From assembly GCA_005884465.1 (NCBI GenBank), contig VAZH01000208.1, positions 1 through 12,394 of the forward strand: a stretch of DNA of 12,394 nucleotides, written 5' to 3'. The position numbers were made by a program, and so were the translations under genes. The notes under the pieces were generated by a model. That model was not told the DNA's origin. It saw only the letters and a program-made list of their open reading frames with translations, and did no database searches. Source of the DNA: Alphaproteobacteria bacterium (GTDB lineage Bacteria > Pseudomonadota > Alphaproteobacteria > Rhizobiales > Xanthobacteraceae). This document shows, in pieces, positions 4,512 to 12,213 of the stretch; the stretch's first letter is position 1, and every line of letters begins with the position of its first letter.

Positions 4512-5444
4512 CTATCGCCAGCGGCGATGCAGCCACAGCCATTGATCGGGATATTCGCGGATCCAGCCCTCGACCACCGAGGTAATCGCCTGCGTCGTGC
4601 CCTGAACATCGATTTTACCCGCGGCGTCGCGGACCGGCTTTACTTCATCCGATAGTTCGGCGCGAAAGCGGTGACCGGGCAGGCGGATGATCCGCACCCC
4701 ATGTACCGGGCATTCGACCTGCCGCAATAGCCGCGCGAGCATCGGATTGGCGCGGGTCTTGCGGCCGAAGAAGGTGACCTCGACGCCATTGGTAAGATAC
4801 TGATCGACCAGCATCGCGACGTGCTGGCCGTTTTGCAGGGCCTCCGCAAGCTTTAGCGGGGCGTCGCGGCCGGCCGGAATCAGCGTGCCCATTTTTACCG
4901 CGCGGATTTCCTCGATGGCGCGATCGGCGGAGGCGATGTTCGGCCGCCGATACAGGATCGCTGCGTCCAGTCCGTGCGCGACCGCAGCCAGGGCGGGCAG
5001 TTCCCAGTTGCCGAGATGGCTTGCGAAGATCAGCGCCGGCTTGCCATCGAGCCGCAGCTGCGCAAACAGCTCATGGGTGCGGGGCAGGATTTCGATGCGG
5101 CTTTGTTCGGGATAGGCGGGATCGTGCTCCCAGATATGATCGAGATGCGCGAATTCGGCACCGACGCGACCAAGGTTATCCCAAACGCCTGCCAAAATGG
5201 TCTCGATCTCGGCAGGCGATTTTTCCGGGAATGCGGCGATCAGATTGGCGCGGCCGATTCGTTGCTCGCGCATCATCGGTCCAACAGAGCGAGCGATCCG
5301 GCCGAACAGGTTCGCGGTCTTGATCGGATCGAAATAGCGGGTGGTGCGAAGCATTCCAATCGTCAACGCGCCGACCGCGGCTTCGGCGATCGGCTTGGTG
5401 GCGTCGCGAAGACGGGCCCTGGCACGAGGAAGCAAGCGGCTCAT
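4512..5444 (-). CDS. lpxXL: Lipid A VLCFA acyltransferase LpxXL (HtrB/LpxL family)
   Basis: A 310-residue lysophospholipid-acyltransferase-superfamily protein, expected at the cytoplasmic face of the inner membrane. It contains the catalytic HX4E motif in SHLGNWELP (His143, Glu148), the LYRRPN segment (~166-171), the VDQ stretch (~211), and the family-typical C-terminus PDQWLWLHRRW. In rhizobia LpxXL transfers the very-long-chain hydroxy fatty acid from AcpXL to lipid A. This role is inferred mainly from its place at the end of the acpXL cluster, since ordinary LpxL looks similar. Start ATG 5444 is chosen; TTG 5450 would add two residues. No strong ribosome binding site is seen, and the start lies only 20 bases after the fabF1XL stop, suggesting coupling. 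The adh2XL gene usually found between these two genes is missing. Confidence 0.88.
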   Translation of the reverse strand: MSRLLPRARARLRDATKPIAEAAVGALTIGMLRTTRYFDPIKTANLFGRIARSVGPMMREQRIGRANLIAAFPEKSPAEIETILAGVWDNLGRVGAEFAHLDHIWEHDPAYPEQSRIEILPRTHELFAQLRLDGKPALIFASHLGNWELPALAAVAHGLDAAILYRRPNIASADRAIEEIRAVKMGTLIPAGRDAPLKLAEALQNGQHVAMLVDQYLTNGVEVTFFGRKTRANPMLARLLRQVECPVHGVRIIRLPGHRFRAELSDEVKPVRDAAGKIDVQGTTQAITSVVEGWIREYPDQWLWLHRRWR

Positions 5445-5464
5445 TTGCAAAAATGGCTGACTTG

Positions 5465-6746
5465 CTAGACCGGTTCACGCGTCAGAATCAGCGAGGCGTT
5501 CTGGCCACCGAAGCCGAACGAATTCGACATCACGGCGGTGACGCGGGCGTCGCGCGCCTTGTTGGGGACGACGTCGAAGGGAATCGCCGGATCCGGAACA
5601 TCGTAGTTGATGGTCGGCGGAATCCGCTGATGCTCAAGCGTCAGCAGCGAGAACACGGCTTCCACCGCGCCGGCAGCGGAGAGGGTGTGGCCTACCATCG
5701 ATTTGTTGGACGATACCGGAATTTGCGTGGCGCGCTCGCCGAACACGGTCGAGATCCCCAGATATTCCATCTTGTCGTTTTCCGGCGTGCCGGTGCCGTG
5801 CGCGTTGATGTAGTCGATCTGCTCGGCGACGATGCCGGCATCCGACAATGCGTTGCGGACGCATCCGATGATCGGCTTGCCGTCCGGGCTGGAGCGGGTG
5901 CGGTGGAAAGAATCCGCAAGTTCGCCGCAGCCGGCGACGATGCCGAGGATTTTTGCGCCCCGCGCTGTGGCGGCTTCATAGCTTTCCAGCACCAGCGCGC
6001 CTGCGCCCTCCGCCATCACAAAGCCGTCGCGGTTCTTCGAGAACGGCCGTACCGCCGCCTGTGGTGGATCGTTATGGGTTGACAGCGCCGATAGCAATGA
6101 GAACCGGACCAAGGCTTCCGGATTGACCGAACCGTCGGTCGCAACGCACAGCGCCGCATCCGTCTCGCCGCGGCGAATGGCTTCAACGCCGAGCTGAATC
6201 GCGGTGGCGCCCGATGCGCATGCCGTGGAAAGCGAGATCGGTCGGCGAACCCTTGGTGCCGAACACCTCGGCCAGGTGATCGGCCACCGAGCCGAATAGA
6301 AAACGCCGGTGATATCCTGTGTACCTTCCGCCGCCGCTGACGCGCAGTATGGCGTCATAGTTGAAGTCCGTCTCCGAGATCGCGCGCCCAAGTTCCTCTC
6401 GTTGCGGCCACTCGACCTCGATGGGGGCAACAGCAAGAAACAGCGGCCCGGGAAAATCACCTTTGCTCCCTATCGCGGATTGCGCGATGGCTTCTTCAGT
6501 GGCGATATCGGCAAGCCGCTCCGAAAGATCGGTCGATGAAAAAGGCTCGACCGGCACGAAATCAACCGTTCCGGCCATCGTCGTTTTCAGTCCCTCGATG
6601 GGGAAACGCGTGATGGTCCGAATGCCGGATTCGCCCGCGGTGAGCTTTGCCCAGTTGTCGGCCTGGCCGGCGCCAAGCGATGTCACGACGCCCATGCCGG
6701 TGACGACGACGATCGGTCTTCCTGATTTATCGCGTGATGCTGTCAT
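5465..6746 (-). pseudogene. fabF1XL: FabF1XL 3-oxoacyl-ACP synthase, disrupted by a 4-base duplication
   Basis: Condensing enzyme (KAS II-like) that should elongate acyl-AcpXL in VLCFA synthesis. From ATG 6746 (SD GGGGAA close upstream) the frame reads normally for 168 residues, through VTGMGVVTSLG and GYHRRFLFGSVADHL to FGTKGSP, then runs 19 foreign residues to a stop at 6183. The homologous continuation ISLSTACASG is in another frame and runs intact to TAG 5465-5467. The junction holds the tandem repeat TCGGTCGG (+ strand 6238-6245). Removing one copy restores a 425-residue protein with all landmarks: Cys175 (STACASG), His315 (INAHGTG), Lys347 and His352 (SNKSMVGH), and a final GFGGQNASL. 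As read, the first fragment lacks every catalytic residue. This could be true gene loss, phase variation or a sequence error; no programmed-frameshift signal was seen. Confidence 0.87.
6238..6245. repeat. TCGG x2 tandem duplication at the fabF1XL frameshift
   Basis: Two adjacent copies of TCGG (6238-6241 and 6242-6245) occur exactly where the fabF1XL reading frame shifts. On the coding strand this is CCGACCGATC, where the family-like reading needs CCGATC. The whole gene span of 1282 bases becomes divisible by three (1278) when one copy is removed. This is consistent with replication slippage or an assembly or read artefact. Confidence 0.85.
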
Positions 6747-6773: not shown

Positions 6774-7985
6774 TCACTTGATCGCTTCGACCAGGGCCAT
6801 GCCTTCGCCCCGCCAGTGACCGGCCCCTACGACTACAATCTGTGTCGGCGGCCTGGACATTTCAACCTCGAGCCCCGTGGGATCGTTGGGCGGAAACAGC
6901 GCCCCGCGGGAAAGCGAGAGCGCCGCTAGCGCAAGTCCCAGCGGAAACTGGGTTTCCATGGTGTGACCGAACATCGTGCCGGTAGCCCGTACCGCAAAAT
7001 CCGGATGCTCGCCCAGGAATGCCCGCTCCTCGGATGTCACCGGTTCGGCGCCGGTGGCGCCGGTGATGATAGCGCCCTTGGCCTCAAGCTTGCCGAGTTT
7101 CGACCACAGCTTTTCCAGCGTCGCGGTAATCTCGCCGGGATGCTTGCGGTGCGCCAGATCGGCGACGACGTTGCTCAGGCGCGCATAGGGTTTCGCACCG
7201 CGTGCTTCCGCGTGCGCCCTGGACTCGATGACGAGAAAAGCGCCGGCGGACCCCAGCGCGAAGCCGGCGCTACTCTGGCGGCGAGCCCAAACCGGAGCAA
7301 ATTTGTCCTTGAGGTTGAAATCGCCGAATTCATAGAGCACCAACAGGTCCTTGCGCTCGCCGTTTTGCGAACCACCGATCAGCGCGATGTCGCTTTGACC
7401 GGCGGCGATGCGTGCGAGCGCGATCCTTGCGGCGTCAACGCCGGCGGCTTCCTCGCCCATGAAGGTGCGCGACGAGCCGGTCACGCCGTGCACGATCGCG
7501 ATATTGCCCGCCAACAGGTTAGAAAGCTGCGCCAGGAACAGCGTCGGACGCAGATCGTTCATCAACCTCTCGTTGAGGAAACCGGGAGCGGAGTTGCCTT
7601 TCGCTTCCAAATTCAGAATGTTGCAGTCCACCGCGAGATCGCGTTCGCCACCACCGGCGGCGACAATCATGTCCATCCGTCCGAGGATCTCCTTGTTGCC
7701 TTTAACGCCGGCCGAATCCAGCGCGAGCCCGGCGGCGTAGGTGCCGATGCGTTGCCAGCCTTCCATCTGGCGCTGATCGCCTTTCTTGGGGATCTGCGTG
7801 TCAAAATTCACCGGCGCCAAGGGATGGACGATGTAAGGCGCAAAACCCTTTTCATCGATGTTGATGCGCCGCGCATTGAGCGCCTCCCAGTTCGCGTCCA
7901 GCCCCTCACCAAGTGAGGTGGCGAGGCCGATGCCGGTGATCCAGACTTCCGTCGACCCCGGGTGCGAAGGTTTCGCCTCAGTCAT
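6774..7985 (-). CDS. fabF2XL: FabF2XL, ketosynthase-like protein lacking the catalytic Cys and first His
   Basis: A 403-residue thiolase-fold protein related to KAS II. N-terminal VWITGIGLATSLGEG, central DIALIGGSQNG and C-terminal FGHTMETQFPLG show the ketosynthase fold. By eye alignment with E. coli FabF, the nucleophile Cys position is Glu179 (in FMGEEAAG), the first catalytic His is Gly309 (in ITGATGAE), and the conserved Lys before the second His is Gly336; only His341 remains. The only cysteine in the protein, Cys121, is not at the active site. It is therefore probably non-catalytic and may pair with FabF1XL like a chain-length factor, which is inference. Start ATG 7985 overlaps the fabZXL stop by 8 bases; the frame open upstream to 8090 is inside fabZXL. 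The gene ends 27 bases before fabF1XL. Confidence 0.9.
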   Translation of the reverse strand: MTEAKPSHPGSTEVWITGIGLATSLGEGLDANWEALNARRINIDEKGFAPYIVHPLAPVNFDTQIPKKGDQRQMEGWQRIGTYAAGLALDSAGVKGNKEILGRMDMIVAAGGGERDLAVDCNILNLEAKGNSAPGFLNERLMNDLRPTLFLAQLSNLLAGNIAIVHGVTGSSRTFMGEEAAGVDAARIALARIAAGQSDIALIGGSQNGERKDLLVLYEFGDFNLKDKFAPVWARRQSSAGFALGSAGAFLVIESRAHAEARGAKPYARLSNVVADLAHRKHPGEITATLEKLWSKLGKLEAKGAIITGATGAEPVTSEERAFLGEHPDFAVRATGTMFGHTMETQFPLGLALAALSLSRGALFPPNDPTGLEVEMSRPPTQIVVVGAGHWRGEGMALVEAIK

Positions 7986-8451
7986 GAGCGATGGCCTGCT
8001 GTGGAAAGCCGACGCGCTTGGCCATGGCATCCATGTGTCGGCGCAAATCCGGATTCGGGAAGGGAATATGGCTGAACGTGATCGTCGCATTGCACTTCAG
8101 CTTGCCGCCGACGCTTACCTTCGCTTCGGTCATCGCATAACCCGAGCCTTCGTGAAGGACGTTGGCGTTGATCGTCAGCAATTCCCCGGGGGACACGAAG
8201 CCGCGCATCTTGGCTTCCTTGACCGCGGCGAGAAACGGCATGCGCTCGAATTTCATCAGCGCGAGCAACAGCCAACCCGAGGTCTGCGCCATCGATTCGA
8301 TCAGCAAGACGCCGGGCATGATTGGATAGCCCGGGAAATGCCCCTCGAAGATGGTGTTGTGCTGCGGAACCTGCGCCTCGACCTGAATGGTCTTCTCGTC
8401 GATGTTGAGGTCGAGGATGCGGTCGATCAGCTGGAAATATTCAAGCTGCAT
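7978..8451 (-). CDS. fabZXL: FabZXL (3R)-hydroxyacyl-ACP dehydratase for VLCFA synthesis
   Basis: A 157-residue hot-dog-fold dehydratase. The FabZ/FabA-type motif GHFPGYPIMPGVLLIESMAQ (~37-56) contains the catalytic His38 and Glu52. It removes water from 3-hydroxyacyl-ACP in each elongation round; position between acpXL and fabF2XL indicates AcpXL-bound substrates. Length fits FabZ (about 150) with a short C-terminal extension rich in Arg/His/Met. Start ATG 8451 follows the acpXL stop by 9 bases. No clear Shine-Dalgarno sequence precedes it, so translational coupling with acpXL is likely. Its 3' end overlaps the fabF2XL start by 8 bases. Confidence 0.93.
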   Translation of the reverse strand: MQLEYFQLIDRILDLNIDEKTIQVEAQVPQHNTIFEGHFPGYPIMPGVLLIESMAQTSGWLLLALMKFERMPFLAAVKEAKMRGFVSPGELLTINANVLHEGSGYAMTEAKVSVGGKLKCNATITFSHIPFPNPDLRRHMDAMAKRVGFPQQAIAHD

Positions 8452-8460
8452 GGCGGGCGA

Positions 8461-8748
8461 TTAGGCGCCCGCGCCCTTGGCGGCGACCAATTCGTCGATG
8501 CGCGCGCTGAGGTTTTTCAGGACAAAGTATTGTTCGGTCGTCGCCTTTCCGTCGTTGACTTCCTGCGTCCATTTTTCCAGCGGCAGCTTGATCCCGAATG
8601 CCTTGTCGATCGCAAATGCAATGTCGAGAAAATCGAGGCTGTCGATCCCCAGGTCGTCGATTGCGTGGCTCTCGGGCGTGATCGTGTCGCGCGGTATGTC
8701 GCAAGTTTCAGCGATGATCGTGGCGACCTGATCGAATGTAGAGGACAT
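8461..8748 (-). CDS. acpXL: Specialised acyl carrier protein AcpXL
   Basis: A 95-residue acidic acyl carrier protein. The phosphopantetheine site is Ser37 in [30 protein letters not shown] and the later [20 protein letters not shown] match what I recall of rhizobial AcpXL, which is longer than housekeeping AcpP (about 78) and carries the C26-C28 hydroxy-acyl chain for lipid A. Start ATG 8748 is preferred, with AAAGG at 8756-8760 seven bases upstream; GTG 8751 would add one residue. It is the first gene of the VLCFA operon, and all five genes are spaced from -8 to +27 bases. Confidence 0.95.
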
Positions 8749-8846
8749 CACTAAGCCTTTGATATATTGAGGATAAGTTCCAGGATGGCACGGCAGGCGG
8801 GCGCGGCGCCCCGAAATGCCCCATCGGCGGTCCGGAGTCGAGTGCC

Positions 8847-11592: not shown

Positions 11593-12213
11593 CTATTTCG
11601 GCAAACGCCCCATGATGTAGAATTCGTCATTCGGGCGCATGCCGGTGACGTTGGCCATCCGGTTTGACAGCGCGAAGAACGCGGAGATCGCGGCGATATC
11701 CCAAATGTCGTCGTCGCTAAACCCGTGGCTGGCGACGGCACTGAAATCCGCTTCCGAAATGCCGTGCGCCTCGATGCACCTTCATCGCGTAGTCGAGCAT
11801 GGCTCTCTGGCGCGGCGTGATATCCGCCTTGAGGTAGTTGACGGCGATCTGGTCTGATATCTGCGGGTTCTTCGCCCGGATGCGCAGGATCGCGCCGTGC
11901 GCGATCACGCAATACAGGCATTGGTTGGCGCTGGAGGTGGCAACCACGATCATCTCGCGCTCGGCCTTGGTCAGTCCGCCGTCCTTTTCCATCAGCGCAT
12001 CGTGATAGGCAAAGAACGCCCGAAATTCGTCAGGGCGATATGCCAGCGTCAGGAACACGTTGGGTATGAAGCCGGATTTCTCCTGCACGCGAGCAGGCGG
12101 GTGCGGATATCGTCCGGCAGCTTGTCGATGGACGGCGATGGGAAGCGCTTGCAATGGGCTGCGCCATGGAGCAGGTTCCGCGTCAAGCCGCGTGATGCGG
12201 TAGCCGAGACCAT
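11593..12213 (-). pseudogene. AhpD-like 'peroxidase-related' enzyme, multiply frameshifted
   Basis: Remnant of a carboxymuconolactone decarboxylase/AhpD-superfamily protein of the peroxidase-related type. The best-preserved part (frame of 12268-11717) reads VQEKSGFIPNVFLTLAYRPD, then LTKAEREMIVVATSSANQ and CLYCVIAHGA with the CxxC active-site motif. Upstream, FPSPSIDKLPDDIRTRLLA is in another frame and joins VQEKSGF after loss of one base near 12088. Downstream, EAHGISEADFSAVASHGF to FYIMGRLPK and TAG (11593-11595) is in a third frame, joined near 11773 where two bases are missing after MKVH. With both repairs the span from ATG 12213 gives 207 residues. ATG 12167 is an alternative start that would need one more base near 12152. 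The protein as read is not functional; decay and sequence error cannot be distinguished. Confidence 0.8.

Follow-up and report, generated by a model that had tools for sequence, protein, structure and literature searches.

The cluster for the very-long-chain fatty acids of lipid A has been described in Bradyrhizobium ORS278, where it comprises acpXL, fabZXL, a pair of fabF genes and lpxXL, and where fabF and lpxXL are not separated by an adh gene; the part of that paper available to us describes no break in these genes (PMC5613085). The paper gives fabF1XL ahead of fabF2XL, and its two names may be swapped relative to the naming used here. According to the same part of the paper, lpxXL and BRADO4680 could be mutated, but acpXL, fabZXL, fabF1XL and fabF2XL repeatedly resisted mutation, from which the authors infer essentiality, citing also a Tn-seq study in which these genes are essential in R. 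palustris. Essentiality of the cluster genes is not universal, as Agrobacterium fabrum mutants in fabF2XL and adhA2XL are reported, in the available part of PMC11901934, to be viable without very-long-chain acids. For B. diazoefficiens, the main text of a Tn-seq paper contains neither acpXL, fabF nor "very long", and mentions lipid A twice, in connection with hopanoids and in a reference (PMC8225791). In the lineage studied here fabF1XL is probably essential.

Here we analyse a window of 12,394 nucleotides, which is the entire contig C390 of a draft genome of 3.83 Mb (678 contigs, 70.9% complete), and in which fabF1XL is interrupted by two head-to-tail CCGA units. Simple-sequence phase-variable LPS genes, as known from Haemophilus and Neisseria, carry long repeat arrays. 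The window resembles them in having a tetranucleotide unit within a surface-lipid synthesis gene, but it holds two units only and we see no length variation among its relatives. By its nearest loci, which for the downstream half of the gene include Nitrobacter, Rhodopseudomonas, Afipia and Bradyrhizobium, the source organism appears to be a Bradyrhizobium-type soil bacterium.

The cluster and its interrupted ketosynthase gene

On the minus strand of the window the genes follow each other in the order acpXL, fabZXL, fabF2XL, fabF1XL and lpxXL. The acyl carrier protein gene acpXL (8461..8751) matches NF005079 with 182.5 bits (cut-off 83), fabF2XL (6774..7985) lies in a single frame and matches NF005084 with 635.9 bits (cut-off 320), and the lipid A acyltransferase gene lpxXL (4512..5450) matches NF005120 with 459.5 bits (cut-off 273). 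The fabZXL-like dehydratase gene (7978..8451) reaches 97.2 bits with NF000582, below the cut-off of 113, and is named also by its position in the cluster.

In fabF1XL the frame changes in the middle of the gene. The 5' part (6183..6746) is an open frame of 187 residues with its start at 6746 and its stop at 6183; it matches positions 1-172 of the NCBIfam profile NF005076 with 236 bits, and its last approximately 20 residues are out of frame. The 3' part (5465..6241) lies in another frame and matches positions 167-424 with 531.6 bits; this frame is open from a GTG at 6460 on to 5465, and its segment before 6241 is not fabF1XL protein. Jointly the two pieces span the 425 positions of the profile, although in two frames, and neither half alone reaches the cut-off of 629 bits. 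In a protein comparison with G157, the nearest genus member compared (89% DNA identity over fabF1XL), residues 1-175 belong to one frame and residues 171-428 to the other. At the break the sequence of the minus strand is GGTTCG CCGA CCGA TCTCG, the two units being 6245-6242 and 6241-6238. Since the frame is not continuous but changes at 6245-6238, we regard this fabF1XL as a broken or mis-assembled copy. It shares with the known fabF1XL of acpXL-lpxXL clusters the gene order, a profile match in both halves and the catalytic residues, and differs from it in being interrupted by a 4-bp tandem duplication. Equating NF005076 with fabF1XL is our own reading of a profile which NCBIfam labels beta-ketoacyl-ACP synthase.

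Ketosynthase catalysis depends on a cysteine, two histidines and a lysine. In our alignment all four are found in the 3' piece, and in two unbroken relatives of 425 residues (P0124 and P0129) they are Cys175, His315, Lys347 and His352, all at positions after the break. In FabF2XL a Glu stands in the Cys column, a Thr at the first His and a Gly at the Lys, and only the last His is kept. With three of four catalytic residues missing from FabF2XL, no other gene of the cluster would be expected from sequence to substitute for fabF1XL. A previous, sequence-only reading of this stretch had described a CCGA duplication that leaves a 187-residue stub without catalytic residues, had named the gene fabF1XL with the residue numbers given above, and had regarded its product as the one synthase of the cluster with catalytic competence; our analysis agrees with all of this, on the last point as far as the sequence goes.

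We also considered whether an adh gene beside fabF1XL had been deleted at 5450-5465, and rejected this idea, as a short spacer is the usual state. In the 131 related loci described below, the spacer between fabF1XL and lpxXL is short in 90, measures 900 to 1400 bases in 31 and is larger in 8, with both genes not found in the remaining 2. The open frame at this place in G157 (L141 13958-14980) resembles an alcohol dehydrogenase, a name we gave by eye.

Related loci, copy number and codon constraint

The gene was compared with 131 related loci, 80 of them named and 51, the best-matching loci only, from further members of the genus; the two sets may share genomes, so that 131 is not the number of independent species. 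The sequence-only reading had proposed an alignment to relatives as a check, and in it the extra four bases are absent from all 131 loci, the gap of four being split by the aligner in two distant ones (L086 and L088). All 131 have a single reading frame, a call which rests in 119 cases on a first motif test, in 10 on the start and cysteine motifs seen in one printed frame (at most 250 residues) and in 2 on a second test. The protein closest to the downstream half among those listed, P0123, is 98.8% identical to it and is unbroken across the site; in the upstream overlap 104 of 111 residues are identical, with its first approximately 56 residues outside the view.

The sequence-only reading had also suggested an on/off switch, in which slippage of the tetranucleotide gives reversible phase variation. 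A tandem tetranucleotide does lie within a surface-lipid gene, and, as that reading pointed out, the loss of one unit would reunite the frames. But there are two units only, the extra unit is found in none of the 131 loci of other genomes (the nearest being 89% identical in DNA), and Tandem Repeats Finder at score 30 detects no array at 6238-6245. Four-base tandem pairs are not above chance either: fabF1XL has 3, whereas 200 letter shuffles average 6.2 and roughly corresponding stretches from 51 relatives average 3.9. The CCGA repeat itself is thus unremarkable and only the frame break is notable. With two units in a gene that is probably essential, a switch is not credible, and we consider it extremely improbable.

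In the genus fabF1XL is normally a single-copy gene. Among 265 genomes, including the source genome, matches to fabF1XL at E ≤ 1e-250 number one in 261, two in 2 and none in 2. The genomes with two strong matches are G175 and G176, each with one copy found to lie in a single frame; those without a match are G192 and G212. No second fabF1XL was found in the source genome: P0190, a protein seemingly the same as that of G157, has beyond C390 a single match there at E ≤ 1e-10, a 42%-identical synthase on C138. The assembly is 70.9% complete, so a second copy could sit in the missing part. The same genome also has, at the end of a contig, a ketosynthase fragment (L004, G000:C405:2-298), which is not among the P0190 matches at this threshold.

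Both halves of fabF1XL look like the coding sequence of a constrained gene. Substitutions relative to G157 at codon positions 1, 2 and 3 number 7, 2 and 61 in the downstream half and 13, 6 and 41 in the upstream half, similar to neighbouring genes, and comparisons with G157, G032 and G025 likewise show little change at positions 1 and 2 in both halves. An old break would have left some other damage, so the lack of decay means that the event is either very recent or not real. Constraint on both halves would also fit a programmed ribosomal frameshift that reads through the break. However, as all 131 related loci are in one frame there is nothing conserved to programme, and the site has no unusual fold (z -0.25, DNA parameters); we therefore give this explanation next to no credence.

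A real and very recent event is the main rival to a sequence error. By this explanation fabF1XL was knocked out in the sampled lineage when a 4-bp tandem duplication arose spontaneously, and the very-long-chain acids were lost or are supplied by another ketosynthase. Perfect tandem duplications of 4 bp arise commonly in nature, and base-call errors do not typically take this form; the absence of decay fits a very recent event. Viability without these acids is reported for the A. fabrum mutants in fabF2XL and adhA2XL (PMC11901934, available part). Against it stand the resistance of this normally single-copy gene to mutation in ORS278 (PMC5613085, available part), the absence of the duplication from all 131 related loci and of the broken tail from the best 120 of 1476 proteins matched, and the lack of a compensating copy in the 70.9% of the genome at hand. 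We consider a real loss unlikely. For the same reason of resistance to mutation in ORS278, a working loss of very-long-chain lipid A is unlikely.

Sequence quality of the contig

Unexplained frame breaks near fabF1XL would point to an assembly or consensus error, and we find one such gene. An AhpD-like, peroxidase-related gene on the minus strand (11596..12160; TIGR01926 137.9 bits, cut-off 81.8) shows three short gaps, of 1, 1 and 2 bases, when aligned with G157 and likewise with G025, the gaps being placed differently in the alignment to G032, and its codons are still constrained. It lies about 230 to 800 bases from the contig end. The fabF1XL break is found mid-contig, approximately 6 kb from each end, which counts against a simple end effect.

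For the rest of the genome we used a homology test against G157 and G032, which is blind to breaks near gene ends and to genes without a close relative. It found no frame break in 62 genes on six other contigs (62 kb), with none in 56 genes for the control G157. All six belong to the seven longest of the 40 contigs fetched, C138, C205 and C220 having been picked through a synthase-domain match and C340 partly through a scan flag. In the window, 2 of 13 genes tested are broken; the difference from 0 of 62 gives a Fisher P of 0.028, with the window having entered the comparison because of its break. The six clean contigs imply that the assembly is not generally full of indels, and this also speaks for a real loss. 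On one further contig (L169, G000:C95), which was chosen because the scan flagged it, 1 break was found in 3 genes; it lies at about 490, in a gene that matches an open frame of 874 residues in G157. The codon-usage scan itself, run on 35 of the 40 fetched contigs with the 5 below 900 bases left out, counted 33 changes of frame on the same strand over 241 kb of the source genome and 27 over 200 kb of G157. Most of them lie near a stop codon, like ordinary gene junctions, and we dropped the scan as a genome-wide break rate because it does not discriminate. At contig C390 an error is favoured but not proven.

Truncated relatives and the origin of the break

The stub was searched against the protein database with and without its out-of-frame tail, and the best 120 of 1476 and of 1451 matches, respectively, were inspected. 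These searches return proteins of 0.55 to 1.75 times the query length, and full-length relatives are therefore left out. The broken tail of the window was not found among the best 120 of the 1476. With the tail-less query, 31 of the best 120 of 1451 matches continue for at least 8 residues past the in-frame match, and in 24 of these 31 the tail fits another frame of fabF1XL (two of them weakly), with breaks at residues 158 to 264. Such scattered breaks look as catalogue noise would make them. One of the frame-broken relatives, P0112 from Bradyrhizobium sp. i1.3.1, comes from a chromosome-size contig of 9.56 Mb, and its fabF1XL changes frame around residues 219-231.

The two closest cases raise the question whether the stretch just before the catalytic-cysteine motif is a mutational or assembly hot spot, with several independent frame breaks in the lineage. 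P0001 (186 residues; 96% identical over 167 in-frame residues), which stands for a cluster of 37 sequences, and P0004 (220 residues, 89%) lose the frame no more than five codons from where the window does, by what seem to be different changes, as judged from the protein alone. Such breaks occur in 2 of the 7 nearest truncated matches, for which a rough post hoc Poisson test gives P of about 0.008, both the test and the number seven having been picked after looking. Along the gene as a whole, breaks among the best 120 of 1451 matches occur at a similar rate (6 of 24 at residues 158-172 and the rest at 184-264), and the ordinary fold at the site does not single it out. A hot spot is very unlikely on this evidence. 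P0035 and P0084, of lower identity, are further relatives whose frame breaks only a few codons from that of the window, through different changes; when the query lacks the tail, P0084 is lost from the matches listed and P0001, P0004 and P0035 stay. Where a highly conserved motif adjoins strain-specific sequence, assemblies from soil may break down. A bolder suggestion is that real, independent frame breaks, seen in the window, P0001 and P0004, make the stretch before the catalytic Cys a recurrent site of inactivation in this soil lineage, so that some members of the natural population would lack very-long-chain lipid A even though cultured relatives seem to need the gene; we hold this to be very unlikely indeed. 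The closeness of the breaks in P0001 and P0004 to that of the window is not fully explained.

On balance we consider the CCGA duplication to be quite likely a consensus or assembly error in one draft-genome contig, because fabF1XL is intact in the related genomes examined and is probably essential. The break itself, the unbroken relatives, the lack of decay and the second frame-broken gene on the contig come from our own comparisons, and the probable essentiality in a relative from the literature (PMC5613085, available part). We count for an error the one-copy rule in the genus and the lack of a second copy in the source genome, the constrained halves, P0123 unbroken across the site and the missing bases in the AhpD-like gene; against it we count the 62 unbroken genes elsewhere, the mid-contig site and the breaks of P0001 and P0004 within five codons. 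The sequence-only reading had itself named sequence error as a serious alternative to a switch, and this caveat is the better supported of its two explanations. The frame break is most likely an artefact of the sequence and not a real feature.

If so, the duplicate CCGA would be absent from the cell, and the organism's real gene would be one whole fabF1XL, encoding the elongating ketosynthase for the very-long-chain acids of lipid A. As an error, the break is a caution against inferring switches from frame breaks in single draft genomes unless the underlying reads are at hand. Were the break real, a gene considered essential in Bradyrhizobium would have been lost in nature, which would offer a natural test of the role of very-long-chain lipid A.
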